A stretch of 64,000 nucleotides of DNA from assembly GCA_026018925.1 (NCBI GenBank), contig JAKSZU010000032.1, positions 186,001-250,000 on the forward strand. The letters run 5' to 3'. The stretch is from Tupaia tana. Its lineage: Eukaryota > Chordata > Mammalia > Scandentia > Tupaiidae. Shown here piece after piece: positions 39,312 through 64,000 of this stretch (positions are counted from its first letter, which is position 1; the number at the start of each line of letters is the position of its first letter). The notes beneath the pieces are model-generated. The model made no database searches and was not told the DNA's origin. It was given only the letters and a program-made list of their open reading frames with translations. A program made the translations under genes and the position numbers.

Positions 39312-39983
39312 GAAGCCTAAATCAAACCATATACCTAACCCTAACCCTAGGCGGACACCTTAAGCTCAACCTCAACCCTATCCTGACCCTCATGCTATAT
39401 CCAACCGTAACACTGAACCGAAAACTAACATTACCCCTAAACGTACTCCCTCAAACTAAGTTCAAACCTAACCTAACCTGAAGCCTATCTCAAACCATAC
39501 ACCTAACCCTAAACCTAGGCGGACACCTGAAGCTCAACCCCAACCCTAACCTGACCCTGACGCTATCTCCAACCGTAACACTGAACCGAAAACTAACAGT
39601 AGCCCTAAACTTACTCCCTCAAACTAAGTTCAAACCTAACCTAACCTGAAGCCTAAATCAAACCATACACCTAACCCTAACCCTCGGCGGACACCTTAAG
39701 CTCAACCCAAACCCTAACCTGACCCTCACGCTAACTCCAACCATAACACTGAACCGAAAACTAACAGTAACCCTAAACTTACTCCCTCAAACTAAGTTCA
39801 AACCTAACCTAACCTGAAGCCTACCTCAAACCATAGACCTAACCCTAACCCTAGGCGGACACCTGAAGCTCAACCCCAACCCTAACCTGATCCTGACGCT
39901 ATCTCCAACCGTAACACTGAATCGAAAACTAACAGTAGCCCTAAACTGACTCCCTCAAACTAAGTTCAAACCTAACCTAACCT

Positions 39984-41495
39984 GAAGCCTAAATCAAATC
40001 ATAGGCCTAACCCTAACCCTAGGCGGACACCTTATGCTTAACCCCCACCATAACCTGACCCTGACGCTAACTCCAACCGTAACACTGAACCGAAAACTAA
40101 CAGTAGCCCTAAACTTACTCCCTCAAACTAACTTCAAACCTAACCTAACCTGAAGCCTAACTGAAACCATAGACCTAACCTTAACCCTAGGCGGACACCT
40201 TAAGCTCAACCCCAACCCTAAAATGTCCCTGACGCTAACTCCAACCATAACAGTTACCCGAAAACTAACAGTAGACCTAAACTTACTCCCTCAAACAAAG
40301 TTCAAACCTAACCTAACCTGAAGCCTAAATCAAACCATACACCTAACCCTAACCTTAGGCGGACACCTTCAGCTCAACCCCAAACCTAACCTGACCCTGA
40401 CGCTTACTCCAACCGTAACAGTTAACCGAAAACTAACAGTAGCCCTAAACTGACTCCCTCAAACTAAGTTCAAACCTAACCTAACCTGAAGCCTAAATCA
40501 AATCATAGACCTAACCCTAACCCTAGGCGGACACCTTATGCTTAACCACCACCATAACCTGACCCTGACGCTAACTCCAACCGTAACACTGAACCGAAAA
40601 CTAACAGTAGCCCTAAACTTACTCCCTCAAACTAAGTTCAAACCTAACCTAACCTGAAGCCTAAATCAAACCATACACCTAACCCTAACCCTAGGCGGAC
40701 ACCTTAAGCTCAACCCCAACCCTAACCTGACCCTCACGCTAACTCCAACCGTAACACTGAACCGAAAACTAACAGTAACCCTAAACTTACTCCCTCAAAC
40801 TAAGTTCAAACCTAACCTAACCTGAAGCATAACTCAAACCATAGACCTAACCTTAACCCTAGGCGGACACCTGAAGCTCAACCCCAACCCTAACCTGACC
40901 CTGACGCTATCTGCAACCGTAACACTGAACCGAAAACTAACAGTAGCCCTAAACTTACTCCCTCAAACTAAGTTCACACCTAACCTAACATGAAGCCTAA
41001 CTCAAACCACAGACCTAACCCTAACCCTAGGAGGACACCTTATGCTTAACCCCACCCTAACCTGACCATGACGCTTACTCCAACCGTAACAGTTAAACGA
41101 AAACTAACAGTAGCCCTAAACTGACTCCCTCAAACTAAGTTCATACCTAACCTAAACTGAAGCCTAACTCAAACCATAGACCTAACCTTAACCCTAGGCG
41201 GACACCTGAAGCTCAACCCCAAACCTAACCTGGCACGTACGCTAACTCCAACCATCACACTGAACCGAAAACTAACAGTCGCCCTAAACTTACTCCCTCA
41301 AGCTAAGTTCTAACCTAACCTTACCTGAAGCGATAATCAAACCATACACCTAACCCTAACCCTAGGCGGACACCTTCAGTTCAAACCCCAACCCTAACCT
41401 GACCCTCACGCTAACTCCAACCGTAACACTGAACCGAAAACTAACAGTAGCCCTAAACTTACTCCCTCAAACTAAGTTCAAACCTAACCTAACCT
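39984..41495 (+). repeat. 9-monomer block recurring 42 monomers upstream (copy 2)
   Basis: This is the second copy of 32,928-34,439, with the same order of monomer types and the same two indels. Small private changes include CTAGGAGG near 41,031, ACCTTCAGTTC near 41,373 and ACCACCACC near 40,546. It ends exactly where the 7-monomer block 41,496-42,671 begins. Confidence 0.88.
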
Positions 41496-42671: not shown

Positions 42672-42839
42672 GAAGCCTAAATCAAATCATAGACCTAACC
42701 CTAACCCTAGGCGGACACCTTATCCTTAACCCCCACCATAACCTGACCCTGACACTAACTCCAACCGTAACACTGAACCGAAAACTAACAGTAGCCCTAA
42801 ACTTACTCCCTCAAACTAACTTCAAACCTAACCTAACCT

Positions 42840-43006
42840 GAAGCCTAACTGAAACCATAGACCTAACCCTAACCCTAGGCGGACACCTTAAGCTCAACCC
42901 CAACCCTAACCTGACCCTGACGCTATCTCCAACCTAACACTGAACCGAAAACTAACAGTAGCCCCAAACTTACTCCCTCAAACTAAGTTCAAACCTAACC
43001 TAACCT
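42840..43006 (+). repeat. Boundary monomer between mosaic and higher-order domains
   Basis: This is a 167-bp hybrid. Its left part (AACTGAAACC, CCTTAAGCTC) matches left-domain monomers such as 33,096 and 40,152. Its right part (CTATCTCC followed by AACCTAACACTG, with one base deleted) matches the 17th monomer of the higher-order unit. The switch lies between about positions 51 and 90, near 42,890-42,930. The left edge of the young higher-order array therefore falls inside a monomer rather than at its end. Confidence 0.8.
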
Positions 43007-43174
43007 GAAGCGTATCTCAAACCATAGACCTAACCCTAACCCTAGGCGGACACCTGAAGCTAAACCCCAACCAAAACCTGACCCTGACGCTATCTCCAAC
43101 CGTAACACTGAACCGAAAACAAACAGTAGCCCTAAACTTACTCCCTCAAGCTAAGTTCAAACCTAACCTAACCT

Positions 43175-46100
43175 GAAGCCTAACTCAAACCATAGACCTA
43201 ATTATAACCCTACGCGGACACCAGAAGCTCAACCCCAACCCTAACCTGACCCTGACTCTTACTCCAACTGTAACACTGAACCGAAAACTAACGGTAGCCC
43301 TAAACTTACTCCCTCAAACTAAGTTCAATCCTAACCTAACCTGAAGCTTAACTGAAACCATAGACCTAACCCTAACCCTAGGCGGACACCTTAAGCTCAA
43401 CCCCAACCCTAAAATGGCACTGACGCTAACTCCAACCATAACAGTTACCCGAAAACTAACAGTAGACCTAAAATTACTCCCTCAAACTAAGTTCAAACCT
43501 AACCTAACCTGAAGCCTAAATCAAACCATAGACCTAACCCTAACCCTAGGCGGACAACTTAAGCTCCACCCCAACCCTAACCTGGCCCTGACGCTAACTC
43601 CAACCATAACAGTTACCCGAAAACTAACAGTCGCCCTAAACTTTCTCCCTCAAACTAAGTTCAAACCTAAACTAACCTGAAGCGTATCTCAAACCATAGA
43701 CCTAACCCTAACCCTAGGCGGACACCTGAAGCTAAACCCCAACCAAAACCTGACCCTGACGCTATCTCCAACCGTAACACTGAACCGAAAACAAACAGTA
43801 GCCCTAAACTTACTCCCTCAAGCTAAGTTCAAACCTAACCTAACCTGAAGCCTAACTCAAACCATAGACCTAACCCTAACCCTACGCGGACACCTGAAGC
43901 TCAACCCCAGCCCTAACCTGACCCTGACTCTTACTCCAACTGTAACACTGAACCGAAAACTAACAGTAGCCCTAAACTTACTCCCTCAAATGAAGTTCAA
44001 ACCTAACCTAACCTGAAGCCTAACTCAAACCATAGACCTAACCCTAACCCTAGGCGGACACCTGAAGCTAAACCCCAACCGTAACCTGACCCTGATGCTA
44101 TCTCCAACCGTAACACTGAAGCGAAAACAAAGAGTAGCCCTAAACTTACTCCCTCAAGCTAAGGTCAAACCTAACCTAACCTGAAGCCTAACTCAAACCA
44201 TAGACCTAACCCTAACCCTACGCGGACACCTGAATCTCAACCCCAACCCTAACCTGACCCTGACTCTTACTCCAACTGTAACACTGAACCGAAAACTAAC
44301 AGTAGCCCTAAACTTACTCCCTCAAACTAAGTTCAATCCTAACCTAACCTGAAGCCTAACTCAAACCATAGACCTAACCCTAACCCTAGGCGGACACCTT
44401 AAGCTCAACCCCATCCCTAAAATGGCCCTGAGGCTAAGTCCAACCATAACAGTTACCCGAAAACTAACAGTAGACCTAAAATTACTCCCTCAAAGTAAGT
44501 TCAAACCTAACCTAACCTGAAGCCTAAATCAAACCATACACCTAACCCTAACCCTAGGCGAACCCCTTAAGCTCAACCCCAACCCTAACCTGACCCTCAC
44601 GCTAAATCCAACCGTAACACTGAACCGAAAACTAACAGTAGCCCTAAACTTACTCCCTCAAACTAAGTTCAAACCTAACCTAACCTGAAGCCTAACTCAA
44701 ACCATAGACCTAACCCTAACACTAGGCGGACACCTGAAGCTCAACCCCAACCCTAACCTCACCCTCACGGTAATTCCAACCGTACCACTGAACCAAAAAC
44801 TAACAGTAACCGTAAACGTACTCCCTCAAACTAAGTTCAAACCTAACCTAACCTGAAGCCTAACGCAAACCATAGACCTAACCCTAACCCTAGGCGGACA
44901 CTTGAAGCTAAACCCCAACCCTAACCTGACCCTGACGCTATCTCCAACCGTAACACTGAACCGAAAACTAACAGTAGCCCTAAACTTACTCCTTCAAACT
45001 AAGTTCAAACCTAACCTAACCTGAAGCCTAACTCAAACCATAGACCTAACCCTAACCCTAGACGGACACCTTAAACTCAACCCCAACACTAACGTGGCAC
45101 TGACGCTAACTCCAACCATAACACTGAACCGAAAAATAACAGTTGCCCTAAACTTACTCCCCCAAGCTAAGTTCAAACCTAACCTAACCTGAAGCCTAAC
45201 TCAAACCACAGACCTAACCCTAACCCTAGGCGGACACCTTAAGCTCAACCCCAACCCTAACCGGACCCTGACGCTAACTCCAACCATAACAGTTACCCGA
45301 AAACTAACAGTAGCCCTAAACTTACTCCCTCAAACTAAGTTCAAACATAACCTAACCTGAAGCCCAAATCAAACCATCCACCTAACCCTAACCCTAGGCG
45401 GACACCTGAAGCTCAACTCCAACCCTAACCTGACCCTGACGCTATCTCCAACCGTAACACTGAACTGAAAACTAACAATAGCCCTAAACTTACTCCCTCA
45501 AACTAAGTTCAAATCTAAACTAACCTGAAGCCTAACTCAAACAATAGACCTAACCCTAACCCTAGGCGGACACCTGAAGCTCCACCCCAACCCTAACCTG
45601 ACCCTGACGCTATCTCCAACCGTAACACTGAACCGAAAACTAACAGTAACCCTAAACTTACTCCTTCAAACTAAGTTCACACCTAACCTAACATGAAGCC
45701 TAACTCAAACCACAGACCTAACCCTAACCCTAGGCGGACACCTTATGCTTAACCCCACCCTCGCCTGACCCTGACGCTTATTCCAACCGTAACAGTTAAA
45801 CGAAAACTAACAGTAGCCCTAAATTTACTCCCTCAAACTAAGTTCAAACCTAACCTAACCTGAAGCATAACTCAAACCATAGACCTAACCCTAACCCTAG
45901 GCGGACACCTTAAGCTCAACCCCAACCCTAAAATGGCCCTGACGCTATCTCCATCCTAACACTGAACCGAAAACTAACAGTAGCCCTAAACTTACTCCCT
46001 CAAACTAAGTTCAAACCTAACCTAACCTGAAGCGTATCTCAAACCATAGACCTAACCCTAACCCTAGGCGGACACCTGAAGCTAAACCCCAACCAAAACC

Positions 46101-46196
46101 TGACCCTGACGCTATCTCCAACCGTAACACTGAACCGAAAACAAACAGTAGCCCTAAACTTAGTCCCTCAAGCTAAGTTCAAACCTAACCTAACCT
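43175..46196 (+). repeat. Higher-order unit 1: 18 monomers, variant form
   Basis: The unit is 3,022 bp. It contains M1 to M5, then two monomers not seen in the other complete units (44,038 region with ACTGAAGCGAAAAC and AAAGAGTAG; 44,175 region with CCTGAATCTC), then M6 to M14, a hybrid of M15 and M17, and a final GAAGCGTATCTC monomer of M4 type. The AAAGAGTAG monomer reappears at the window end (about 63,925), so the incomplete last unit is of this form. Confidence 0.85.
45862..46028 (+). repeat. M15/M17 hybrid monomer
   Basis: The left part (CCTTAAGCTC, AAAATGGCCCTGACGCTATC) is M15 and the right part (CTAACACTGAACC with one base deleted) is M17. The crossover is at about positions 80-95, where it also shows the private word CCATCCTAACAC. 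Two monomers' worth of sequence (336 bp) is absent relative to the complete order M15-M16-M17. Confidence 0.85.
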
Positions 46197-48042
46197 GAAG
46201 CCTAACTCAAACCATAGACCTAATTATAACCCTACGCGGACACCAGAAGCTCAACCCCAACCCTAACCTGACCCTGACTCTTACTCCAACTGTAACACTG
46301 AACCGAAAACTAACAGTAGCCCTAAACTTACTCCCTCAAACTAAGTTCAATCCTAACCTAACCTGAAGCCTAACTGAAACCATAGACCTAACCCTAACCC
46401 TAGGCGGACTCCTTAAGCTCAACCCCAACCCTAAAATGGCACTGACGCTAACTCCAACCATAACAGTTACCCGAAAACTAACAGTAGACCTAAAATTACT
46501 CCCTCAAACTAAGTTCAAACCTAACCTAACCTGAAGCCTAAATCAAACAATAGACCTAACCCTAACCCTAGACGGACACCTTAAACTCAACCCCAACACT
46601 AACGTGGCACTGACGCTAACTCCAACCATAACACTGAACCGAAAAATAACAGTTGCCCTAAACTTACTCCCCCAAGCTAAGTTCAAACCTAACCTAACCT
46701 GAAGCCTAACTCAAACCACAGACCTAACCCTAACCCTAGGCGGACACCTTAAGCTCAACCCCAACCCTAACCGGACCCTGACGCTAACTCCAACCATAAC
46801 AGTTACCCGAAAACTAACAGTAGCCCTAAACTTACTCCCTCAAACTAAGTTCAAACATAACCTAACCTGAAGCCTAAATCAAACCATCCACCTAACCCTA
46901 ACCCTAGGCGGACACCTGAAGCTCAACTCCAACCCTAACCTGACCCTGACGCTATCTCCAACCGTAACACTGAACTGAAAACTAACAATAGCCCTAAACT
47001 TACTCCCTCAAACTAAGTTCAAATCTAAACTAACCTGAAGCCTAACTCAAACAATAGACCTAACCCTAACCCTAGGCGGACACCTGAAGCTCCACCCCAA
47101 CCCTAACCTGACCCTGACGCTATCTCCAACCGTAACACTGAACCGAAAACTAACAGTAACCCTAAACTTACTCCTTCAAACTAAGTTCACACCTAACCTA
47201 ACATGAAGCCTAACTCAAACCACAGACCTAACCCTAACCCTAGGCGGACACCTTATGCTTAACCCCACCCTCACCTGACCCTGACGCTTATTCCAACCGT
47301 AACAGTTAAACGAAAACTAACAGTAGCCCTAAATTTACTCCCTCAAACTAAATTCAAACCTAACCTAACCTGAAGCCTAACTCAAACCATAGACCTAACC
47401 CTAACCCTAAGCGGACACCTTAAGCTCAACCCCAACCCTAAAATGGCCCTGACGCTATCTCCAAAAATAACAGTTACCCGAAAACTAACAGTAGACCTAA
47501 AATTACTCCCTCAAACTAAGTTCAAACCTAACCTAACCTGAAGCCTAAATCAAACCATACACCTAACCCTAACCCTCGGCGGACACCTTAAGCTCAACCC
47601 CAAACCTAACCTGACCCTCACGCTAAATCCAACCGTAACACTGAACCGAAAACTAACAGTAGCCCTAAACTTACTCCCTCAAACTAAGTTCAAACCTAAC
47701 CTAACCTGAAGCCTAACTCAAACCATAGACCTAACCCTAACCCTAGGCGGACACCTGAAGCTCAACCCCAACCCTAACCTGACCCTGACGCTATCTCCAA
47801 CCTAACACTGAACCGAAAACTAACAGTAGCCCTAAACTTACTCCCTCAATCTAAGTTCAAACCTAACCTAACCTGAAGCGTATCTCAAACCATAGACCTA
47901 ACCCTAACCCTAGGCGGACACCTGAAGCTAAACCCCAACCAAAACCTGACCCTGACGCTATCTCCAACCGTAACACTGAACCGAAAACAAACAGTAGCCC
48001 TAAACTTACTCCCTCAAGCTAAGTTCAAACCTAACCTAACCT
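46197..48042 (+). repeat. Higher-order unit 2: 11 monomers
   Basis: The unit is 1,846 bp. The order is M1, M2, an M3/M10 hybrid, M11 to M17, then an M4-type monomer (GAAGCGTATCTC). Seven monomers are missing relative to the 18-mer. Private changes include GGACTCCTTAAG near 46,406, CCCTCACCTG near 47,270, CTAAGCGG near 47,408 and CTCAATCTAAG near 47,846. It is nearly identical to the next unit and shares its hybrid joint. Confidence 0.9.
46533..46700 (+). repeat. M3/M10 hybrid monomer, first copy
   Basis: It starts as M3 (AAATCAAAC) and continues as M10 (CTAGACGGACACC, CTTAAACTC, AACGTGGCACTG, AAAAATAACAGTTGCCC). The crossover is between about positions 10 and 38, within the telomere-like core. 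It explains the seven-monomer loss in this unit. It carries a private CAATAGACC where the second copy has CCATAGACC. Confidence 0.9.
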
Positions 48043-49888
48043 GAAGCCTAACTCAAACCATAGACCTAATTATAACCCTACGCGGACACCAGAAGCTCAA
48101 CCCGAACCCTAACCTGACCCTGACTCTTACTCCAACTGTAACACTGAACCGAAAACTAACAGTAGCCCTAAACTTACTCCCTCAAACTAAGTTCAATCCT
48201 AACCTAACCTGAAGCCTAACTGAAACCATAGACCTAACCCTAACCCTAGGCGGACACCATAAGCTCAACCCCAACCCTAAAATGGCACTGACGCTAACTC
48301 CAACCATAACAGTTACCCGAAAACTAACAGTAGACCTAAAATTACTCCCTCAAACTAAGTTCAAACCTAACCTAACCTGAAGCCTAAATCAAACCATAGA
48401 CCTAACCCTAACCCTAGACGGACACCTTAAACTCAACCCCAACACTAACGTGGCACTGACGCTAACTCCAACCATAACACTGAACTGAAAAATAACAGTT
48501 GCCCTAAACTTACTCCCCCAAGCTAAGTTCAAACCTAACCTAACCTGAAGCCTAACTCAAACCACAGACCTAACCCTAACCCTAGGCGGACACCTTAAGC
48601 TCAACCCCAACCCTAACCGGACCCTGACGCTAACTCCAACCATAACAGTTACCCGAAAACTAACAGTAGCCCTAAACTTACTCCCTCAAACTAAGTTCAA
48701 ACATAACCTAACCTGAAGCCTAAATCAAACCATCCACCTAACCCTAACCCTAGGCGGACACCTGAAGCTCAACTCCAACCCTAACCTGACCCTGACGCTA
48801 TCTCCAACCGTAACACTGAACTGAAAACTAACAATAGCCCTAAACTTACTCCCTCAAACTAAGTTCAAATCTAAACTAACCTGAAGCCTAACTCAAACAA
48901 TAGACCTAACCCTAACCCTAGGCGGACACCTGAAGCTCCACCCCAACCCTAACCTGACCCTGACGCTATCTCCAACCGTAACACTGAACCGAAAACTAAC
49001 AGTAACCCTAAACTTACTCCTTCAAACTAAGTTCACACCTAACCTAACATGAAGCCTAACTCAAACCACAGACCTAACCCTAACCCTAGGCGGACACCTT
49101 ATGCTTAACCCCACCCTCGCCTGACCCTGACGCTTATTCCAACCGTAACAGTTAAACGAAAACTAACAGTAGCCCTAAATTTACTCCCTCAAACTAAGTT
49201 CAAACCTAACCTAACCTGAAGCCTAACTCAAACCATAGACCTAACCCTAACCCTAGGCGGACACCTTAAGCTCAACCCCAACCCTAAAATGGCCCTGACG
49301 CTATCTCCAAAAATAACAGTTACCCGAAAACTAACAGTAGACCTAAAATTACTCCCTCAAACTAAGTTCAAACCTAACCTAACCTGAAGCCTAAATCAAA
49401 CCATACACCTAACCCTAACCCTCGGCGGACACCTTAAGCTCAACCCCAAACCTAACCTGACCCTCACGCTAAATCCAACCGTAACACTGAACCGAAAACT
49501 AACAGTAGCCCTAAACTTACTCCCTCAAACTAAGTTCAAACCTAACCTAACCTGAAGCCTAACTCAAACCATAGACCTAACCCTAACCCTAGGCGGACAC
49601 CTGAAGCTCAACCCCAACCCTAACCTGACCCTGACGCTATCTCCAACCTAACACTGAACCGAAAACTAACAGTAGCCCTAAACTTACTCCCTCAAACTAA
49701 GTTCAAACCTAACCTAACCTGAAGCGTATCTCAAACCATAGACCTAACCCTAACCCTAGGCGGACACCTGAAGCTAAACCCCAACCAAAACCTGACCCTG
49801 ACGCTATCTCCAACCGTAACACTGAACCGAAAACAAACAGTAGCCCTAAACTTACTCCCTCAAGCTAAGTTCAAACCTAACCTAACCT
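48043..49888 (+). repeat. Higher-order unit 3: 11 monomers
   Basis: The unit is 1,846 bp, with the same monomer order and the same M3/M10 joint as unit 2. The short form therefore arose once and was then duplicated. Private changes include CAACCCGAACCC near 48,100, CACCATAAGC near 48,255 and ACTGAACTG near 48,480. Confidence 0.9.
48379..48546 (+). repeat. M3/M10 hybrid monomer, second copy
   Basis: This is the same joint as at 46,533-46,700: AAATCAAACCATAGACC from M3, then CTAGACGG and CTTAAACTC from M10. Having the same crossover interval in two adjacent units is direct evidence that the 11-monomer unit was itself duplicated after the deletion. Confidence 0.9.
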
Positions 49889-52742
49889 GAAGCCTAACTC
49901 AAACCATAGACCTAATTATAACCCTACGCGGACACCAGAAGCTCAACCCCAACCCTAACCTGACCCTGACTCTTACTCCAACTGTAACACTGAACCGAAA
50001 ACTAACAGTAGCCCTAAACTTACTCCCTCAAACTAAGTTCAATCCTAACCTAACCTGAAGCCTAACTGAAACCATAGACCTAACCCTAACCCTAGGCGGA
50101 CACCTTAAGCTCAACCCCAACCCTAAAATGGCACTGACGCTAACTCCAACCATAACAGTTACCCGAAAACTAACAGTAGACCTAAAATTACTCCCTCAAA
50201 CTAAGTTCAAACCTAACCTAACCTGAAGCCTAAATCAAACCATAGACCTAACCCTAACCCTAGGCGGACAACTTAAGCTCCACCCCAACCCTAACCTGGC
50301 CCTGACGCTAACTCCAACCATAACAGTTACCCGAAAACTAACAGTCGCCCTAAACTTTCTCCCTCAAACTAAGTTCAAACCTAAACTAACCTGAAGCGTA
50401 TCTCAAACCATAGACCTAACCCTAACCCTAGGCGGACACCTGAAGCTAAACCCCAACCAAAACCTGACCCTGACGCTATCTCCAACCGTAACACTGAACC
50501 GAAAACAAACAGTAGCCCTAAACTTACTCCCTCAAGCTAAGTTCAAACCTAACCTAACCTGAAGCCTAACTCAAACCATAGACCTAACCCTAACCCTACG
50601 CGGACACCTGAAGCTCAACCCCAACCCAAACCTGACCCTGACTCTTACTCCAACTGTAACACTGAACCGAAAACTAACAGTAGCCCTAAACTTACTCCCT
50701 CAAATGAAGTTCAAACCTAACCTAACCTGAAGCCTAACTCAAACCATAGACCTAAACCTAACCCTAGGTGGACACCTTAAGCTCAACCCCAACCCTAAAA
50801 TGGCACTGAGGCTAAGTCCAACCATAACAGTTACCCGAAAACTAACAGTAGACCTAAAATTACTCCCTCAAAGTAAGTTCAAACCTAACCTAACCTGAAG
50901 CCTAAATCAAACCATACACCTAACCCTAACCCTACGCGAACCCCTTAAGCTCAACCCCAACCCTAACCTGACCCTCACGCTAAATCCAACCGTAACACTG
51001 AACCGAAAACTAACAGTAGCCCTAAACTTACTCCCTCAAACTAAGTTCAAACCTAACCTAACCTGAAGCCTAACTCAAACCATAGACCTAACCCTAACAC
51101 TAGGCGGACACCTGAAGCTCAACCCCAACCCTAACCTCACCCTCACGGTAATTCCAACCGTACCACTGAACCGAAAACTAACAGTAACCGTAAACTTACT
51201 CCCTCAAACTAAGTTCAAACCTAACCTAACCTGAAGCCTAACGCAAACCATAGACCTAACCCTAACCCTAGGCGGACACTTGAAGCTAAACCCCAACCCT
51301 AACCTGACCCTGACGCTATCTCCAACCGTAACACTGAACCGAAAACTAACAGTAGCCCTAAACTTACTCCTTCAAACTAAGTTCAAACCTAACCTAACCT
51401 GAAGCCTAACTCAAACCATAGACCTAACCCTAACCCTAGACGGACACCTTAAACTCAACCCCAACCCTAACGTGGCACTGACGCTAACTCCAACCATAAC
51501 ACTGAACCGAAAAATAACAGTTGCCCTAAACTTACTCCCCCAAGCTAAGTTCAAACCTAACCTAACCTGAAGCCTAACTCAAACCACAGACCTAACCCTA
51601 ACCCTAGGAGGACACCTTAAGCTCAACCCCAACCTTAACCGGACCCTGACGCTAACTCCAACCATAACAGTTACCCGAAAACTAACAGTAGCCCTAAACT
51701 TACTCCCTCAAACTAAGTTCAAACATAACCTAACCTGAAGCCTAAATCAAACCATCCACCTAACCCTAACCCTAGGCGGACACCTGAAGCTCAACTCCAA
51801 CCCTAACCTGACCCTGACGCTATCTCCAACCGTAACACTGAACTGAAAACTAACAATAGCCCTAAACTTACTCCCTCAAACTAAGTTCAAATCTAAACTA
51901 ACCTGAAGCCTAACTCAAACAATAGACCTAACCCTAACCCTAGGCGGACACCTGAAGCTCCACCGCAACCCTAACCTGACCCTGACGCTATCTCCAACCG
52001 TAACACTGAACCGAAAACTAACAGTAACCCTAAACTTACTCCTTCAAACTAAGTTCACACCTAACCTAACATGAAGCCTAACTCAAACCACAGACCTAAC
52101 CCTAACCCTAGGCGGACACCTTATGCTTAACCCCACCCTCGCCTGACCCTGACGCTTATTCCAACCGTAACAGTTAAACGAAAACTAACAGTAGCCCTAA
52201 ATTTACTCCCTCAAACTAAGTTCAAACCTAACCTAACCTGAAGCCTAACTCAAACCATAGACCTAACCCTAACCCTAGGCGGACACCTTAAGCTCAACCC
52301 CAACCCTAAAATGGCCCTGACGCTATCTCCAAAAATAACAGTTACCCGAAAACTAACAGTAGACCTAAAATTACTCCCTCAAACTAAGTTCAAACCTAAC
52401 CTAACCTGAAGCCTAAATCAAACCATACACCTAACCCTAACCCTCGGCGGACACCTTAAGCTCAACCCCAAACCTAACCTGACCCTCACGCTAAATCCAA
52501 CCGTAACACTGAACTGAAAACTAACAGTAGCCCTAAACTTACTCCCTCAAACTAAGTTCAAACCTAACCTAACCTGAAGCCTAACTCAAACCATAGACCT
52601 AACCCTAACCCTAGGCGGACACCTGAAGCTCAACCCCAACCCTAACCTGACCCTGACGCTATCTCCAATCTAACACTGAACCGAAAACTAACAGTAGCCC
52701 TAAACTTACTCCCTCAAACTAAGTTCAAACCTAACCTAACCT
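49889..52742 (+). repeat. Higher-order unit 4: 17 monomers
   Basis: The unit is 2,854 bp and holds M1 to M17 with no extra M4-type monomer at the end. Diagnostic variants in order: M1 ATTATAACCC; M2 AAAATGGCACTGACG; M3 AACTTTCTCC; M4 GAAGCGTATCTC; M5 CTCAAATGAAG; M6 CTGAGGCTAAGTCC; M7 GAACCCCTTAAG; M8 CTCACGGTAATTCC; M9 ACACTTGAAG; M10 CTAGACGG; M11 CCGGACCC; M12 CATCCACC; M13 CTCCTTC then TTCACACC; M14 CCCTCGCC; M15 CTCCAAAAATAACAG; M16 CCCTCGGCGG; M17 CTAACACTG with a 1-bp deletion. This is the reference order. Confidence 0.92.
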
Positions 52743-54924
52743 GAAGCCTAACTCAAACCATAGACCTAATTATAACCCTACGCGGACACCAGAAGCTCAA
52801 CCCCAACCCTAACCTGACCCTGACTCTTACTCCAACTGTAACACTGAACCGAAAACTAACAGTAGCCCTAAACTTACTCCCTCAAACTAAGTTCAATCCT
52901 AACCTAACCTGAAGCCTAACTGAAACCATAGACCTAACCCTAACCCTAGGCGGACACCTTAAGTTCAACCCCAACCCTAAAATGGCACTGACGCTAACTC
53001 CAACCATAACAGTTACCCGAAAACTAACAGTAGACCTAAAATTACTCCCTCAAACTAAGTTCAAACCTAACCTAACCTGAAGCCTAAATCAAACCATAGA
53101 CCTAACCCTAACCCTAGGCGGACAACTTAAGCTCCACCCCAACCCTAACCTGGCCCTGACGCTAACTCCAACCATAACAGTTACCCGAAAACTAACAGTC
53201 GCCCTAAACTTTCTCCCTCAAACTAAGTTCAAACCTAAACTAACCTGAAGCCTAACTCAAACCATAGACCTAACCCTAACACTAGGCGGACACCTGAAGC
53301 TCAACCCCAACCCTAACCTCACCCTCACGGTAATTCCAACCGTACCACTGAACCGAAAACTAACAGTAACCGTAAACTTACTCCCTCAAACTAAGTTCAA
53401 ACCTAACCTAACCTGAAGCCTAACGCAAACCATAGACCTAACCCTAACCCTAGGCGGACACTTGAAGCTAAACCCCAACCCTAACCTGACCCTGACGCTA
53501 TCTCCAACCGTAACACTGAACCGAAAACTAACAGTAGCCCTAAACTTACTCCTTCAAACTAAGTTCAAACCTAACCTAACCTGAAGCCTAACTCAAACCA
53601 TAGACCTAACCCTAACCCTAGACGGACACCTTAAACTCAACCCCAACCCTAACGTGGCACTGACGCTAACTCCAACCATAACACTGAACCGAAAAATAAC
53701 AGTTGCCCTAAACTTACTCCCCCAAGCTAAGTTCAAACCTAACCTAACCTGAAGCCTAACTCAAACCACAGACCTAACCCTAACCCTAGGAGGACACCTT
53801 AAGCTCAACCCCAACCTTAACCGGACCCTGACGCTAACTCCAACCATAACAGTTACCCGAAAACTAACAGTAGCCCTAAACTTACTCCCTCAAACTAAGT
53901 TCAAACATAACCTAACCTGAAGCCTAAATCAAACCATCCACCTAACTCTAACCCTAGGCGGACACCTGAAGCTCAACTCCAACCCTAACCTGACCCTGAC
54001 GCTATCTCCAACCGTAACACTGAACTGAAAACTAACAATAGCCCTAAACTTACTCCCTCAAACTAAGTTCAAATCTAAACTAACCTGAAGCCTAACTCAA
54101 ACAATAGACCTAACCCTAACCCTAGGCGGACACCTGAAGCTCCACCCCAACCCTAACCTGACCCTGACGCTATCTCCAACCGTAACACTGAACCGAAAAC
54201 TAACAGTAACCCTAAACTTACTCCTTCAAACTAAGTTCACACCTAACCTAACATGAAGCCTAACTCAAACCACAGACCTAACCCTAACCCTAGGCGGACA
54301 CCTTATGCTTAACCCCACCCTCGCCTGACCCTGACGCTTATTCCAACCGTAACAGTTAAACGAAAACTAACAGTAGCCCTAAATTTACTCCCTCAAACTA
54401 AGTTCAAACCTAACCTAACCTGAAGCCTAACTCAAACCATAGACCTAACCCTAACCCTAGGCGGACACCTTAAGCTCAACCCCAACCCTAAAATGGCCCT
54501 GACGCTATCTCCAAAAATAACAGTTACCCGAAAACTAACAGTAGACCTAAAATTACTCCCTCAAACTAAGTTCAAACCTAACCTAACCTGAAGCCTAAAT
54601 CAAACCATACACCTAACCCTAACCCTCGGCGGACACCTTAAGCTCAACCCCAAACTTAACCTGACCCTCACGCAAAATCCAACCGTAACACGGAACTGAA
54701 AACTAACAGTAGCCCTAAACTTACTCCCTCAAACTAAGTTCAAACCTAACCTAACCTGAAGCCTAACTCAAACCATAGACCTAACCCTAACCCTAGGCGG
54801 ACACCTGAAGCTCAACCCCAACCCTAACCTGACCCTGACGCTATCTCCAATCTAACACTGAACCGAAAACTAACAGTAGCCCTAAACTTACTCCCTCAAA
54901 CTAAGTTCAAACCTAACCTAACCT
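52743..54924 (+). repeat. Higher-order unit 5: 13 monomers
   Basis: The unit is 2,182 bp. M3 (ending AACTTTCTCC and CCTAAACTAACC) is followed directly by M8 at 53,247, so M4 to M7 are missing. The start of M8 is intact, so the joint lies in the monomer tail or the shared first bases. It shares CTTAAGTTC in M2 (near 52,960) with unit 6. M16 here has private changes (CACGCAAAATCC, ACACGGAACTG near 54,670-54,690). Confidence 0.9.
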
Positions 54925-57106
54925 GAAGCCTAACTCAAACCATAGACCTAATTATAACCCTACGCGGACACCAGAAGCTCAACCCCAACCCTAACCTGAC
55001 CCTGACTCTTACTCCAACTGTAACACTGAACCGAAAACTAACAGTAGCCCTAAACTTACTCCCTCAAACTAAGTTCAATCCTAACCTAACCTGAAGCCTA
55101 ACTGAAACCATAGACCTAACCCTAACCCTAGGCGGACACCTTAAGTTCAACCCCAACCCTAAAATGGCACTGACGCTAACTCCAACCATAACAGTTACCC
55201 GAAAACTAACAGTAGACCTAAAATTACTCCCTCAAACTAAGTTCAAACCTAACCTAACCTGAAGCCTAAATCAAACCATAGACCTAACCCTAACCCTAGG
55301 CGGACAACTTAAGCTCCACCCCAACCCTAACCTGGCCCTGACGCTAACTCCAACCATAACAGTTACCCGAAAACTAACAGTCGCCCTAAACTTTCTCCCT
55401 CAAACTAAGTTCAAACCTAAACTAACCTGAAGCCTAACTCAAACCATAGACCTAACCCTAACCCTAGGCGGACACCTGAAGCTCAACCCCAACCCTAACC
55501 TCACCCTCACGGTAATTCCAACCGTACCACTGAACCGAAAACTAACAGTAACCGTAAACTTACTCCCTCAAACTAAGTTCAAACCTAACCTAACCTGAAG
55601 CCTAACGCAAACCATAGACCTAACCCTAACCCTAGGCGGACACTTGAAGCTAAACCCCAACCCTAACCTGACCCTGACGCTATCTCCAACCGTAACACTG
55701 AACCGAAAACTAACAGTAGCCCTAAACTTACTCCTTCAAACTAAGTTCAAACCTAACCTAACCTGAAGCCTAACTCAAACCATAGACCTAACCCTAACCC
55801 TAGACGGACACCTTAAACTCAACCCCAACCCTAATGTGGCACTGACGCTAACTCCAACCATAACACTGAACCGAAAAATAACAGTTGCCCTAAACTTACT
55901 CCCCCAAGCTAAGGTCAAACCTAACCTAACCTGAAGCCTAACTCAAACCACAGACCTAACCCTAACCCTAGGAGGACACCTTAAGCTCAACCCCAACCTT
56001 AACCGGACCCTGACGCTAACTCCAACCATAACAGTTACCCGAAAACTAACAGTAGCCCTAAACTTACTCCCTCAAACTAAGTTCAAACATAACCTAACCT
56101 GAAGCCTAAATCAAACCATCCACCTAACCCTAACCCTAGGCGGACACCTGAAGCTCAACTCCAACCCTAACCTGACCCTGACGCTATCTCCAACCGTAAC
56201 ACTGAACTGAAAACTAACAATAGCCCTAAACTTACTCCCTCAAACTAAGTTCAAATCTAAACTAACCTGAAGCCTAACTCAAACAATAGACCTAACCCTA
56301 ACCCTAGGCGGACACCTGAAGCTCCACCCCAACCCTAACCTGACCCTGACGCTATCTCCAACCGTAACACTGAACCGAAAACTAACAGTAACCCTAAACT
56401 TACTCCTTCAAACTAAGTTCACACCTAACCTAACATGAAGCCTAACTCAAACCACAGACCTAACCCTAACCCTAGGCGGACACCTTATGCTTAACCCCAC
56501 CCTCGCCTGACCCTGACGCTTATTCCAACCGTAACAGTTAAACGAAAACTAACAGTAGCCCTAAATTTACTCCCTCAAACTAAGTTCAAACCTAACCTAA
56601 CCTGAAGCCTAACTCAAACCATAGACCTAACCCTAACCCTAGGCGGACACCTTAAGCTCAACCCCAACCCTAAAATGGCCCTGACGCTATCTCCAAAAAT
56701 AACAGTTACCCGAAAACTAACAGTAGACCTAAAATTACTCCCTCAAACTAAGTTCAAACCTAACCTAACCTGAAGCCTAAATCAAACCATACACCTAACC
56801 CTAACCCTCGGCGGACACCTTAAGCTCAACCCCAAACCTAACCTGACCCTCACGCTAAATCCAACCGTAACACTGAACTGAAAACTAACAGTAGCCCTAA
56901 ACTTACTCCCTCAAACTAAGTTCAAACCTAACCTAACCTGAAGCCTAACTCAAACCATAGACCTAACCCTAACCCTAGGCGGACACCTGAAGCTCAACCC
57001 CAACCCTAACCTGACCCTGACGCTATCTCCAACCTAACACTGAACCGAAAACTAACAGTAGCCCTAAACTTACTCCCTCAAACTAAGTTCAAACCTAACC
57101 TAACCT
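54925..57106 (+). repeat. Higher-order unit 6: 13 monomers
   Basis: The unit is 2,182 bp, with the same M3-to-M8 joint as unit 5 (M8 starts at 55,429), so this short form was also duplicated after it formed. M8 here reads CTAACCCTAGGCGG where unit 5 has CTAACACTAGGCGG. M10 shows CTAATGTGGC and AAGGTC near 55,833 and 55,913. M16 keeps ACTGAACTG, shared with unit 4. Confidence 0.9.
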
Positions 57107-59960
57107 GAAGCCTAACTCAAACCATAGACCTAATTATAACCCTACGCGGACACCAGAAGCTCAACCCGAACCCTAACCTGACCCTGACTCTTACTCCAAC
57201 TGTAACACTGAACCGAAAACTAACAGTAGCCCTAAACTTACTCCCTCAAACTAAGTTCAATCCTAACCTAACCTGAAGCCTAACTGAAACCATAGACCTA
57301 ACCCTAACCCTAGGCGGACACCTTAAGCTCAACCCCAACCCTAAAATGGCACTGACGCTAACTCCAACCATAACAGTTACCCGAAAACTAACAGTAGACC
57401 TAAAATTACTCCCTCAAACTAAGTTCAAACCTAACCTAACCTGAAGCCTAAATCAAACCATAGACCTAACCCTAACCCTAGGCGGACAACTTAAGCTCCA
57501 CCCCAACCCTAACCTGGCCCTGACGCTAACTCCAACCATAACAGTTACCCGAAAACTAACAGTCGCCCTAAACTTTCTCCCTCAAACTAAGTTCAAACCT
57601 AAACTAACCTGAAGCGTATCTCAAACCATAGACCTAACCCTAACCCTAGGCGGACACCTGAAGCTAAACCCCAACCAAAACCTGACCCTGACGCTATCTC
57701 CAACCGTAACACTGAACCGAAAACAAACAGTAGCCCTAAACTTACTCCCTCAAGCTAAGTTCAAACCTAACCTAACCTGAAGCCTAACTCAAACCATAGA
57801 CCTAACCCTAACCCTACGCGGACACCTGAAGCTCAACCCCAACCCTAACCTGACCCTGACTCTTACTCCAACTGTAACACTGAACCGAAAACTAACAGTA
57901 GCCCTAAACTTACTCCCTCAAATGAAGTTCAAACCTAACCTAACCTGAAGCCTAACTCAAACCATAGACCTAACCCTAACCCTAGGCGGACACCTTAAGC
58001 TCAACCCCAACCCTAAAATGGCACTGAGGCTAAGTCCAACCATAACAGTTACCCGAAAACTAACAGTAGACCTAAAATTACTCCCTCAAAGTAAGTTCAA
58101 ACCTAACCTAACCTGAAGCCTAAATCAAACCATACACCTAACCCTAACCCTACGCAAACCCCTTAAGCTCAACCCCAACCCTAACCTGACCCTCACGCTA
58201 AATCCAACCGTAACACTGAACCGAAAACTAACAGTAGCCCTGAACTTACTCCCTCAAACTAAGTTCAAACCTAACCTAACCTGAAGCCTAACTCAAACCA
58301 TAGACCTAACCCTAACACTAGGCGGACACCTGAAGCTCAACCCCAACCCTAACCTCACCCTCACGGTAATTCCAACCGTACCACTGAACCGAAAACTAAC
58401 AGTAACCGTAAACTTACTCCCTCAAACTAAGTTCAAACCTAACCTAACCTGAAGCCTAACGCAAACCATAGACCTAACCCTAACCCTAGGCGGACACTTG
58501 AAGCTAAACCCCAACCCTAACCTGACCCTGACGCTATCTCCAACCGTAACACTGAACCGAAAACTAACAGTAGCCCTAAACTTACTCCTTCAAACTAAGT
58601 TAAAACCTAACCTAACCTGAAGCCTAACTCAAACCATAGACCTAACCCTAACCCTAGACGGACACCTTAAACTCAACCCCAACCCTAACGTGGCACTGAC
58701 GCTAACTCCAACCATAACACTGAACCGAAAAATAACAGTTGCCCTAAACTTACTCCCCCAAGCTAAGTTCAAACCTAACCTAACCTGAAGCCTAACTCAA
58801 ACCACAGACCTAACCCTAACCCTAGGAGGACACCTTAAGCTCAACCCCAACCCTAACCGGACCCTGACGCTAACTCCAACCATAACAGTTACCCGAAAAC
58901 TAACAGTAGCCCTAAACTTACTCCCTCAAACTAAGTTCAAACATAACCTAACCTGAAGCCTAAATCAAACCATCCACCTAACCCTAACCCTAGGCGGACA
59001 CCTGAAGCTCAACTCCAACCCTAACCTGACCCTGACGCTATCTCCAACCGTAACACTGAACTGAAAACTAACAATAGCCCTAAACTTACTCCCTCAAACT
59101 AAGTTCAAATCTAAACTAACCTGAAGCCTAACTCAAACAATAGACCTAACCCTAACCCTAGGCGGACACCTGAAGCTCCACCCCAACCCTAACCTGACCC
59201 TGACGCTGTCTCCAACCGTAAGACTGAACCGAAAACTAACAGTAACCCTAAACTTACTCCTTCAAACTAAGTTCACACCTAACCTAACATGAAGCCTAAC
59301 TCAAACCACAGACCTAACCCTAACCCTAGGCGGACACCTTATGCTTAACCCCACCCTCGCCTGACCCTGACGCTTATTCCAACCGTAACAGTTAAACGAA
59401 AACTAACAGTAGCCCTAAATTTACTCCCTCAAACTAAGTTCAAACCTAACCTAACCTGAAGCCTAACTCAAACCATAGACCTAACCCTAACCCTAGGCGG
59501 ACACCTTAAGCTCAACCCCAACCCTAAAATGGCCCTGACGCTATCTCCAAAAATAACAGTTACCCGAAAACTAACAGTAGACCTAAAATTACTCCCTCAA
59601 ACTAAGTTCAAACCTAACCTAACCTGAAGCCTAAATCAAACCATACACCTAACCCTAACCCTCGGCGGACACCTTAAGCTCAACCCCAAACCTAACCTGA
59701 CCCTCACGCTAAATCCAACCGTAACACTGAACCGAAAACTAACAGTAGCCCTAAACTTACTCCCTCAAACTAAGTTCAAACCTAACCTAACCTGAAGCCT
59801 AACTCAAACCATAGACCTAACCCTAACCCTAGGCGGACACCTGAAGCTCAACCCCAACCCTAACCTGACCCTGACGCTATCTCCAACCTAACACTGAACC
59901 GAAAACTAACAGTAGCCCTAAACTTACTCCCTCAAACTAAGTTCAAACCTAACCTAACCT
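57107..59960 (+). repeat. Higher-order unit 7: 17 monomers
   Basis: The unit is 2,854 bp with M1 to M17 in the reference order. It shares a set of recent changes only with unit 8: CTACGCAAACCCC in M7 (near 58,150), GTAGCCCTGAAC (near 58,235), AAGTTAAAACC in M9 (near 58,598), and GACGCTGTCTCC with GTAAGACTG in M13 (near 59,205). Units 7 and 8 are therefore the most recent large duplication in the window. Confidence 0.93.
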
Positions 59961-62900
59961 GAAGCCTAACTCAAACCATAGACCTAATTATAACCCTACG
60001 CGGACACCAGAAGCTCAACCCGAACCCTAACCTGACCCTGACTCTTACTCCAACTGTAACACTGAACCGAAAACTAACAGTAGCCCTAAACTTACTCCCT
60101 CAAACTAAGTTCAATCCTAACCTAACCTGAAGCCTAACTGAAACCATAGACCTAACCCTAACCCTAGGCGGACACCTTAAGCTCAACCCCAACCCTAAAA
60201 TGGCACTGACGCTAACTCCAACCATAACAGTTACCCGAAAACTAACAGTAGACCTAAAATTACTCCCTCAAACTAAGTTCAAACCTAACCTAACCTGAAG
60301 CCTAAATCAAACCATAGACCTAACCCTAACCCTAGGCGGACAACTTAAGCTCCACCCCAACCCTAACCTGGCCCTGACGCTAACTCCAACCATAACAGTT
60401 ACCCGAAAACTAACAGTCGCCCTAAACTTTCTCCCTCAAACTAAGTTCAAACCTAAACTAACCTGAAGCGTATCTCAAACCATAGACCTAACCCTAACCC
60501 TAGGCGGACACCTGAAGCTAAACCCCAACCAAAACCTGACCCTGACGCTATCTCCAACCGTAACACTGAACCGAAAACAAACAGTAGCCCTAAACTTACT
60601 CCCTCAAGCTAAGTTCAAACCTAACCTAACCTGAAGCCTAACTCAAACCATAGACCTAACCCTAACCCTACGCGGACACCTGAAGCTCAACCCCAACCCT
60701 AACCTGACCCTGACTCTTACTCCAACTGTAACACTGAACCGAAAACTAACAGTAGCCCTAAACTTACTCCCTCAAATGAAGTTCAAACCTAACCTAACCT
60801 GAAGCCTAACTCAAACCATAGACCTAACCCTAACCCTAGGCGGACACCTTAAGCTCAACCCCAACCCTAAAATGGCACTGAGGCTAAGTCCAACCATAAC
60901 AGTTACCCGAAAACTAACAGTAGACCTAAAATTACTCCCTCAAAGTAAGTTCAAACCTAACCTAACCTGAAGCCTAAATCAAACCATACACCTAACCCTA
61001 ACCCTACGCAAACCCCTTAAGCTCAACCCCAACCCTAACCTGACCCTCACGCTAAATCCAACCGTAACACTGAACCGAAAACTAACAGTAGCCCTGAACT
61101 TACTCCCTCAAACTAAGTTCAAACCTAACCTAACCTGAAGCCTAACTCAAACCATAGACCTAACCCTAACACTAGGCGGACACCTGAAGCTCAACCCCAA
61201 CCCTAACCTCACCCTCACGGTAATTCCAACCGTACCACTGAACCGAAAACTAACAGTAACCGTAAACTTACTCCCTCAAACTAAGTTCAAACCTAACCTA
61301 ACCTGAAGCCTAACGCAAACCATAGACCTAACCCTAACCCTAGGCGGACACTTGAAGCTAAACCCCAACCCTAACCTGACCCTGACGCTATCTCCAACCG
61401 TAACACTGAACCGAAAACTAACAGTAGCCCTAAACTTACTCCTTCAAACTAAGTTAAAACCTAACCTAACCTGAAGCCTAACTCAAACCATAGACCTAAC
61501 CCTAACCCTAGACGGACACCTTAAACTCAACCCCAACCCTAACGTGGCACTGACGCTAACTCCAACCATAACACTGAACCGAAAAATAACAGTTGCCCTA
61601 AACTTACTCCCCCAAGCTAAGTTCAAACCTAACCTAACCTGAAGCCTAACTCAAACCACAGACCTAACCCTAACCCTAGGAGGACACCTTAAGCTCAACC
61701 CCAACCCTAACCGGACCCTGACGCTAACTCCAACCATAACAGTTACCCGAAAACTAACAGTAGCCCTAAACTTACTCCCTCAAACTAAGTTCAAACATAA
61801 CCTAACCTGAAGCCTAAATCAAACCATCCACCTAACCCTAACCCTAGGCGGACACCTGAAGCTCAACTCCAACCCTAACCTGACCCTGACGCTATCTCCA
61901 ACCGTAACACTGAACTGAAAACTAACAATAGCCCTAAACTTACTCCCTCAAACTAAGTTCAAATCTAAACTAACCTGAAGCCTAACTCAAACAATAGACC
62001 TAACCCTAACCCTAGGCGGACACCTGAAGCTCCACCCCAACCCTAACCTGACCCTGACGCTGTCTCCAACCGTAAGACTGAACCGAAAACTAACAGTAAC
62101 CCTAAACTTACTCCTTCAAACTAAGTTCACACCTAACCTAACATGAAGCCTAACTCAAACCACAGACCTAACCCTAACCCTAGGCGGACACCTTATGCTT
62201 AACCCCACCCTCGCCTGACCCTGACGCTTATTCCAACCGTAACAGTTAAACGAAAACTAACAGTAGCCCTAAATTTACTCCCTCAAACTAAGTTCAAACC
62301 TAACCTAACCTGAAGCCTAACTCAAACCATAGACCTAACCCTAACCCTAGGCGGACACCTTAAGCTCAACCCCAACCCTAAAATGGCCCTGACGCTATCT
62401 CCAAAAATAACAGTTACCCGAAAACTAACAGTAGACCTAAAATTACTCCCTCAAACTAAGTTCAAACCTAACCTAACCTGAAGCCTAAATCAAACCATAC
62501 ACCTAACCCTAACCCTCGGCGGACACCTTAAGCTCAACCCCAAACCTAACCTGACCCTCACGCTAAATCCAACCGTAACACTGAACCGAAAACTAACAGT
62601 AGCCCTAAACTTACTCCCTCAAACTAAGTTCAAACCTAACCTAACCTGAAGCCTAACTCAAACCATAGACCTAACCCTAACCCTAGGCGGACACCTGAAG
62701 CTCAACCCCAACCCTAACCTGACCCTGACGCTATCTCCAACCTAACACTGAACCGAAAACTAAGAGTAGCCCTAAACTTACTCCCTCAAACTAAGTTCAA
62801 ACCTAACCTAACCTGAAGCGTATCTCAAACCATAGACCTAACCCTAACCCTAGGCGGACACCTGAAGCTAAACCCCAACCAAAGCTGACCCTGACGCTAT

Positions 62901-62981
62901 CTCCAACCGTAACACTGAACCGAAAACAAACAGTAGCCCTAAACTTACTCCCACAAGCTATGTTCAAACCTAACCTAACCT
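59961..62981 (+). repeat. Higher-order unit 8: 18 monomers
   Basis: The unit is 3,021 bp. It holds M1 to M17 nearly identical to unit 7, then an added M4-type monomer (GAAGCGTATCTC, from about 62,815) with a private 1-bp deletion (ACCAAAGCTGACC). Unit 7 lacks that last monomer, as do units 4 to 6, while units 1 to 3 have it. Its presence varies independently of the internal deletions. Confidence 0.93.
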
Positions 62982-64000
62982 GAAGCCTAACTCAAACCAT
63001 AGACCTAATTATAACCCTACGCGGACAGCAGAAGCTCAACCCCAACCCTAACCTGACCCTGACTCTTACTCCAACTGTAACACTGAACCGAAAACTAACA
63101 GTAGCCCTAAACTTACTCCCTCAAACTAAGTTCAATCCTAACCTAACCTGAAGCCTAACTGAAACCATAGACCTAACCCTAACCCTAGGCGGACACCTTA
63201 AGCTCAACCCCAACCCTAAAATGGCACTGACGCTAACTCCAACCATAACAGTTACCCGAAAACTATCAGTAGACCTAAAATTACTCCCTCAAACTAAGTT
63301 CAAACCTAACCTAACCTGAAGCCTAAATCAAACCATAGACCTAACCCTAACCCTAGGCGGACAACTTAAGCTCCACCCCAACCCTAACCTGGCTCTGACG
63401 CTAACTCCAACCATAACAGTTACCCGAAAATTAACAGTCGCCCTAAACTTTCTCCCTCAAACTAAGTTCAAACCTAAACTAACCTGAAGCGTATCTCAAA
63501 CCATAGACCTAACCCTAACCCTAGGCGGACACCTGAAGCTAAACCCCAAACAAAACCTGACCCTGACGCTATCTCCAACCGTAACACTGAACCGAAAACA
63601 AACAGTAGCCCTAAACTTACTCCCTCAAGCTAAGTTCAAACCTAACCTAACCTGAAGCCTAACTCAAACCATAGACCTAACCCTAACCCTACGCGGACAC
63701 CTGAAGCTCAACCCCAACCCTAACCTGACCCTGACTCTTACTCCAACTGTAACTCTGAACCGAAAACTAACAGTAGCCCTAAACTTACTCCCTCAAATGA
63801 AGTTCAAACCTAACCTAACCTGAAGCCTAACTCAAACCATAGACCTAACCCTAACCCTAGGCGGACACCTGAAGCTAAACCCCAACCGTAACCTGACCCT
63901 GACGCTATCTCCAACCGTAACACTGAAGCGAAAACAAAGAGTAGCCCTAAACTTACTCCCTCAAGCTAAGTTCAAACCTAACCTAACCTGAAGCCTAAAT
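62982..64000 (+). repeat. Higher-order unit 9: incomplete at window end
   Basis: Six complete monomers (M1 to M5, then the AAAGAGTAG monomer found otherwise only in unit 1) are followed by 11 bp of a seventh cut by the window edge. Private changes include GGACAGCAG near 63,024, AACTATCAG near 63,264, CTGGCTCTG near 63,390 and GTAACTCTG near 63,750. The array clearly continues beyond this end. Confidence 0.9.

Follow-up and report, generated by a model that had tools for sequence, protein, structure and literature searches.

A local higher-order repeat island in an abundant satellite of probable telomeric descent in Tupaia tana

The window analysed here comprises 64 000 nucleotides of the Tupaia tana genome assembly GCA_026018925.1 (contig JAKSZU010000032.1, designated C453; C453:186001–250000). 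The contig is 4.19 Mb long and belongs to an assembly of 2.95 Gb in 1198 contigs. The window is made up of a single satellite with a 168 bp unit, within which an island of ∼21 kb shows a higher-order repeat (HOR) arrangement with a varying number of monomers per unit. We interpret the island as a local higher-order structure within an abundant, non-coding satellite that is probably derived from telomeric repeats, the units having been shaped by exchange between misaligned copies, and we place the probability of this interpretation at about 0.8.

The entire 64 kb is satellite, and not merely the part that contains the island. The 381 full monomers (340 of 168 bp, 35 of 167 bp and six of 169 bp) have a mean identity to their consensus of 94.4%; the 21-base remainder, a last partial monomer, was left out of the analysis. 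The plus strand is rich in C and A along the full window, with a strong strand bias. A coding repeat was rejected, as no stop-to-stop frame of 250 amino acids is listed in the window (the listing omits frames that run off the ends). An origin in a prokaryote, virus or phage was also rejected: a 20-mer gave no exact matches in viral_contigs and genome_contigs, BLAST with the low-complexity filter on gave no phage match and the assembly contains alpha- and beta-type globin exons. These exons lie in two groups of contig places. One beta exon agrees at 62 of 70 residues with its best solved partner, 3fh9, and one alpha exon aligns with solved haemoglobin alpha chains but is identical to none among the alignments listed; the solved partners are mammalian. 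Guinea pig haemoglobin has also been solved, so that the host is probably not guinea pig. The beta-globin pieces may resemble tree shrew beta globin.

With letters denoting monomer types, the first half of the island reads tu / abcdefghijklmnop(q/t)u / ablmnopqrtu / ablmnopqrtu / abcdehijklmnopqrt and the second half reads abcjklmnopqrt / abcjklmnopqrt / abcdehijklmnopqrt / abcdehijklmnopqrtu / abcdef. The units (U0–U9) and the other features of the window are listed in Table 1. Every unit can be read as a sub-set of one 20-monomer composite, a putative parent that is nowhere seen whole and of which the units are short by two, three, seven or nine monomers. The differences in length are taken as losses, which we infer rather than observe; monomers f and g occur together only in U1, with f alone in the cut-off U9, and could also represent a gain in U1 and U9. 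In the hybrid monomer of U1 the change from q to t falls between columns 85 and 104, with one diagnostic site off. Junctions at homologous monomer columns, together with a hybrid monomer, are the trace expected from in-register exchange between paralogous monomers.

Table 1. Coordinates of the satellite, the higher-order island, its units and the tandem blocks in the window
Feature	Position	Strand	Remarks
Satellite array	1–64000	+	Head-to-tail 168 bp monomers, 381 full copies; C/A-rich strand on +
Higher-order repeat island	42760–63979	+	Left edge set by an offset run, right edge by typing the monomers that follow; edges ± ∼1 monomer
U0 (partial)	42830–43164	+	Last two monomers, t and u
U1	43165–46186	+	18 monomers; 20-mer with q, r and t replaced by a single q/t hybrid
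U2	46187–48032	+	11 monomers; without c–k; junction in columns 20–50 of monomer l
U3	48033–49878	+	11 monomers; junction marker common to U2
U4	49879–52732	+	17 monomers; without f, g and u
U5	52733–54914	+	13 monomers; without d–i and u; junction in columns 3–16 of monomer j
U6	54915–57096	+	13 monomers; junction marker common to U5
U7	57097–59950	+	17 monomers; type of U4
U8	59951–62971	+	18 monomers; U7 plus terminal u
U9 (partial)	62972–63979	+	Monomers a–f
11-monomer segment, ∼2.3 tandem copies	45955–50263	+	Offset 1846, 99.47%
13-monomer segment, three tandem copies	51058–57615	+	Offset 2182, 99.66%
17-monomer segment, ∼2.6 tandem copies	55422–62819	+	Offset 2854, 99.8%; includes U7/U8
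Small tandem block	5529–8023	+	Period of nine monomers; separate from the island
Small tandem block	25191–27561	+	Period of seven monomers; separate from the island

The monomers of the composite 20-mer differ from one another at 5–24 of 168 positions (3–14%), far more than the aligned monomers of U1–U8 differ between units (0.04–1.59%), and the tandem units keep a constant order of monomer types, with gaps; both properties are those of an HOR. Given this contrast in divergence and the fact that nine of the 14 ATTATA-context matches described below lie in the island, the series of units is not a chance arrangement. Homogenization over hundreds of kilobases to megabases, as in a full HOR array, is not seen: the island spans ∼21 kb and both of its edges were found. 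As in cascading HORs, monomer types (11, 50 and 53) recur within a unit when clustered at a threshold of six differences, a result that depends on the threshold.

The hexamer ATTATA is present nine times in the window, at spacings of 3022, 1846, 1846, 2854, 2182, 2182, 2854 and 3021 bp. These spacings amount to exactly the 18, 11, 11, 17, 13, 13, 17 and 18 monomers of 168 bp given in an earlier note on this DNA; clustering of the monomers gives back the same ATTATA-defined unit order, and the length of ∼21 kb given there for the landmark-defined series is correct. The note further claimed that a second landmark, CCCTCGCC, yields the same unit sizes. Its spacings differ, however, the seven matches in the window being separated by 3356, 3022, 2182, 2182, 2854 and 2854 bp. 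The copy in U2 carries a point difference; when it is included there are eight monomers of this type, spaced 9, 11, 18, 13, 13, 17 and 17 monomers apart. The two landmarks disagree because the units miss different segments in different places, so that any list of unit sizes depends on the landmark.

Blocks defined without a landmark were obtained from runs of near-identity at fixed offsets, the strongest of which extend over 55422–59965 at offset 2854 (99.8%) and 51058–55433 at offset 2182 (99.66%), followed by 49865–53251 at 7218 (99.56%), 49865–52668 at 10072 (99.57%) and 45955–48417 at 1846 (99.47%). The run at offset 2182 is 4376 bases long and hence corresponds to three tandem copies of a 13-monomer segment, which cross the ATTATA-defined boundaries. 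The most similar pair of units is U7–U8 (divergence of 0.04%, a single difference over 17 shared monomers); the divergence is 0.32% for both U4–U5 and U4–U6, 0.37% for U5–U6, 0.42% for U3–U7 and 0.49% for U2–U3. The earlier note expected 2/3, 5/6 and 7/8 to be pairs of nearest relatives. This is fully the case for 7/8 and only half so for 2/3, as U2 is closest to U3 whereas U3 is closest to U7; it fails for 5/6, each of which is closer to U4 than to the other. With the hybrid monomer of U1 excluded, 57 sites vary among the units and 14 of these group two or more units: (7,8) at five sites, (5,6), (1,2,3) and (4,5,6) at two sites each and (3,7,8), (2,3) and (4,5) at one site each.

These groupings bear on a different history, in which each deletion would first have produced one short unit that was later duplicated whole, the 21 kb thereby recording stages in the growth of a higher-order array. 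The unit sizes defined by ATTATA do fall in neighbouring pairs, and the junction markers are common to U5/U6 and to U2/U3: the sole (2,3) site is the junction marker itself and the (5,6) sites are the junction marker and b64. Nevertheless, units 4, 5 and 6 (sites in m and r) and units 1, 2 and 3 (sites in l and m) group too, U5 and U6 are each nearer to U4 than to each other, the landmark-free blocks contain three or ∼2.3 copies and the same string would arise if an out-of-register exchange inserted a segment of 11 or 13 monomers. We therefore consider deletion followed by duplication of the shortened unit to be rather unlikely. The description of the 11-mers and 13-mers as shortened forms of the 17/18-mer holds in so far as they are sub-sets of the longer units with homologous junctions that neighbours share; the 17/18-mer is not the simplest reference, which would be the putative 20-mer. 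There is no sign that the 21 kb records the growth of a large array, since the series ends at the right edge of the window, the landmarks are serial only here and the places sampled elsewhere have local blocks of their own. The variation in unit size most likely reflects ordinary unequal exchange.

The case for telomeric descent of the monomer begins with its register. In a single 6 bp phase the 168 bp consensus matches (CCCTAA)28 at 63.7% of positions, compared with 38.4% on average (s.d. 2.3, highest 47.0) for 1000 dinucleotide-preserving shuffles of the consensus, so that the telomeric register of the unit is beyond chance; a gapped fit to CCCTAA matches in 122 of 169 columns. The unit length equals 28 × 6, and among periods of 2 to 42 (30 shuffles each) only 6 and its multiples exceed z = 3. 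Columns 33–48 of the consensus form a 16-base perfect telomere stretch. The longest perfect telomere repeat in the 64 kb is 17 bp, unlike the large, essentially pure TTAGGG blocks of heterochromatic interstitial telomeric sequences (het-ITS). When eleven telomere-like units were tried in the gapped fit, CCCTAA gave the top score (72, z = 9.2); the telomere types of arthropods (CCTAA) and plants (CCCTAAA), with scores of 51 and 44, were rejected. Single monomers have a mean register fit of 0.608, the value calculated for monomers that drift neutrally away from the consensus. Conservation is only marginally higher at telomeric bases (0.947) than at the remaining ones (0.9385), and at off-register columns 181 of 947 variants are changes to the telomeric base, a proportion below one in three. 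We conclude from these sequence properties that the monomer probably descends from telomeric repeats and has since drifted neutrally; a continuing telomeric role finds no support in them.

Such a role would be expected if the array were an active platform for telomere proteins with predicted TRF-type sites instead of a neutral or centromeric satellite. The TRF site is YTAGGGTTR, and the window contains 867 matches to it, all on the minus strand, against a mean of 32.7 in ten shuffles; at least one is present in 374 of the 381 monomers. The telomeric core also ranks seventh of 168 windows in conservation over all 381 monomers. It ranks only 21st of 168 in the older region alone, however, and selection on the core, which is weak over all monomers and unsupported in the older region, was rejected as a candidate. 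With the drift-like fit of single monomers and the low proportion of variants towards the telomeric base, a TRF platform appears unlikely. Still less probable is that the 6 bp register is a by-product of a simple C/A-rich composition. The strand bias, the comparable fit of a similar hexamer and the near absence of sparing of telomeric bases by divergence are in keeping with such an origin; shuffles of the same dinucleotide composition, however, do not exceed 0.470 against the observed 0.637, and neither the 28 × 6 length, the prominence of period 6 and its multiples nor the 16-base perfect stretch fits it.

Long perfect telomeric tracts exist elsewhere in the assembly, where a 42-mer of CCCTAA/TTAGGG has 29 forward and 919 reverse matches (control, 0). 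Most of the 100 telomeric-tract places listed lie near the end of C608, behind a run of N. Perfect tracts also occur at intervals at C508:10106–12319, several of them ∼430 bp long, in a contig with Ns at its start, and a degenerate interstitial tract (C297:54.04 Mb) is located inside a large contig, with 21% of it under weak (72%) satellite matches. Within the consensus, 78 is the strongest of all lags (P = 0.0155 against hexamer-order shuffles); lags 78/90 are a weak sign of a duplication of 13 + 15 hexamers, and a 78 bp sub-unit may have been an intermediate.

The island is bounded on both sides. On the left, matching at a fixed offset stops near 42760. The first three monomers to the right of U9, which lie outside the window, differ from any of the island types at a minimum of 5, 15 and 14 positions, and further right single monomers come within one to three differences of types q, r, t and m; the monomer types are thus common to the surroundings, unlike the unit series. 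No ATTATA is present in the 20 kb that follow the window. Its 16-base context has 14 exact matches in the assembly, nine in the island and five single ones inside other large contigs, and all seven assembly matches to the 18-base context of the second landmark are in the island. In the 2.95 Gb assembly, the landmarks form a series only here. An assembly artefact, with near-identical units fused or lost, is improbable. U7 and U8 (one difference in 17 monomers) are a hard case for an assembler, but the units carry 57 variable sites, the island is edged on both sides and the in-register junctions, one of which gives a hybrid monomer, are unlike a random join.

The satellite itself is abundant. 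A 20-base consensus word has 206 351 exact matches in the assembly (106 270 and 100 081 on the two strands; 0 for the reversed control), and the window contains 188 matches to it per 381 monomers; extrapolation at this ratio gives ∼418 000 monomers, 70 Mb or 2.4% of the assembly. All twenty 10 kb samples (16 on C453, two on C258 and two on C251) are satellite over their full length. Short probes on the same three contigs are satellite at ≥99% in 15 of 15 cases, with one more at 1.75 Mb, and every examined place on C453 is satellite. Its orientation flips within C453, between 1 750 600 and 2 000 001 (loci L094 and L030). Among ten contigs of ≥41 Mb, three of 16 examined ends carry the satellite (the starts of C297 and C642 and the end of C275), as does one of 14 starts of smaller contigs (C33); one other start reads N. 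The consensus sequences of five sampled groups differ from that of the window by 0, 0, 1, 0 and 0 bases, the group with one difference comprising only 20 monomers. Fetched-locus monomers with more than 20 gaps were left out. Over the 20 samples, the share of monomers with a partner at no more than one difference within their own 10 kb varies between 0.00 and 1.00; in the window it is 0.88 for 50001–60000 and 0.00 for 30001–40000. The leading periods of the samples range from ∼7 to 30 monomers, some of them from runs of little over 100 bases. As both the partner share and the periods vary among samples, homogenization is patchy and local. Another higher-order block, with a 24-monomer period, is found at C453:60001–70000 (L011), where all 59 monomers have such a partner.

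Several observations weigh against the interpretation given at the outset. The ACCTAA class fits the consensus register slightly better (0.643) than CCCTAA (0.637, second among all hexamers), and GCCTAA (z = 8.5) and CCCCAA (z = 8.3) come near CCCTAA (z = 9.2) in the gapped fit, with lower scores (49 and 41 versus 72); with rival hexamers fitting about as well, it is not proven which hexamer exactly was the ancestor. Among the 381 monomers of the window and 1225 others, no near-pure telomeric monomer or intermediate was seen, the highest fit being 0.643. The 14 grouping sites conflict slightly, such that they resolve the order of events only weakly, and part of the pattern could be due to gene conversion. 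Periods of 11, 13, 17 and 18 monomers also lead at other sampled loci (L013, L018, L015, L010 and L028). As these periods and near-island monomers occur elsewhere, the island is private only as a landmark series and not in each of its periods or monomers.

In the mechanism that we propose, a TTAGGG telomeric-type tract of 28 hexamers most likely diverged to give the 168 bp monomer, which would then have been frozen as a unit of nucleosome length and multiplied in either orientation. Recombination between copies, sister or neighbouring, that are shifted against each other by whole monomers would repeatedly add or remove segments; here, such exchange would have left a series of sub-sets of one 20-monomer parent, with segments of 17, 13 and 11 monomers amplified locally in tandem and with the near-identical pair U7/U8 as the presumed last step. 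Islands formed in this way would stay local, giving different blocks at different places in the satellite. A centromeric or pericentromeric location for the satellite seems plausible. More tentatively, and as something possible that we do not favour outright, the main centromeric satellite of this mammal (70 Mb by the above extrapolation) may descend from TTAGGG, a hexamer array like that of Eulemur collaris centromeres having aged into a 168 bp unit of nucleosome length that now starts to form private higher-order islands. If so, it would represent a later stage of a path from telomere to centromere at which the hexamer register is still readable.

Variation in unit size by unequal exchange is textbook knowledge for human alpha satellite. 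Primate alpha satellite has a 171 bp unit and a CENP-B box core; the satellite described here has a 168 bp unit and no match to the box core on either strand of the window, a distinction based on these features and not on alignment of the two sequences. Human D17Z1 on chromosome 17 is described as containing 15-, 14-, 13- and 12-mers beside a 16-mer, attributed to deletions by unequal exchange (PMC3966626), and the island resembles it in this polymorphism of unit length, with shorter units beside longer ones. D17Z1, however, is a chromosome-specific centromeric array (PMC3966626), whereas the landmark series here is confined to 21 kb and the monomer, with its telomeric register and lack of the CENP-B box core, is of another kind. 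The cascading HORs of human chromosome 15, for which 429 and 164 copies are given (PMC11050224), are similar in the recurrence of a monomer type within the unit and in having variant copies; the island differs from them in having nine landmark units (the last partial) and no canonical majority size.

Guinea pig alpha-satellite has a buoyant density of 1.705, and a GC content near 46% is common to it and the satellite here. Guinea pig and kangaroo rat are cited as species with a satellite of the telomeric hexamer (PMC9498494); compared by description only, the guinea pig alpha-satellite is likewise an abundant mammalian satellite based on the telomeric hexamer, and was one of the early sources for the TTAGGG/CCCTAA repeat. 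In Eulemur collaris, also a mammal, centromeres are reported in a preprint to consist of megabase TTAGGG arrays away from the chromosome ends, in which higher-order structure was not distinguishable and for which co-immunoFISH supports centromere function (PMC13228423). The repeat there is the hexamer itself, in contrast to a 168 bp unit with perfect telomere repeats of at most 17 bp, and any centromere function of the present satellite would be putative. Large interstitial telomeric blocks and their proposed amplification by unequal exchange have been reviewed (PMC6410037). The telomere-associated repeats of Chironomus, judging by the title of the report, are complex units that evolved from simple-telomere-like sequences; they differ in belonging to an insect, in lying at chromosome ends and in their length of ∼350 bp. 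Five monomer strings were not found in published papers by text search, nor was a 168 bp telomere-derived unit with private higher-order islands found in the literature searched. The less usual feature is a probably telomere-derived satellite of nucleosome length with private local islands, and the satellite is a more interesting object than the variation in unit size. It adds a case in which the birth of a satellite from telomeric hexamers and its current homogenization may both be read from the sequence, the latter as small local islands under one consensus over three sampled contigs. Should it prove to be centromeric, it would offer a testbed for how a centromere satellite of nucleosome length is built from a simple repeat and for the scale of homogenization.

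Two minor observations concern the window itself. No G-quadruplexes of four GGG runs are present on either strand. Positions 1–42760, to the left of the island, are a mosaic of the same monomers that includes longer-range copies as well as small tandem blocks with periods of seven and nine monomers.

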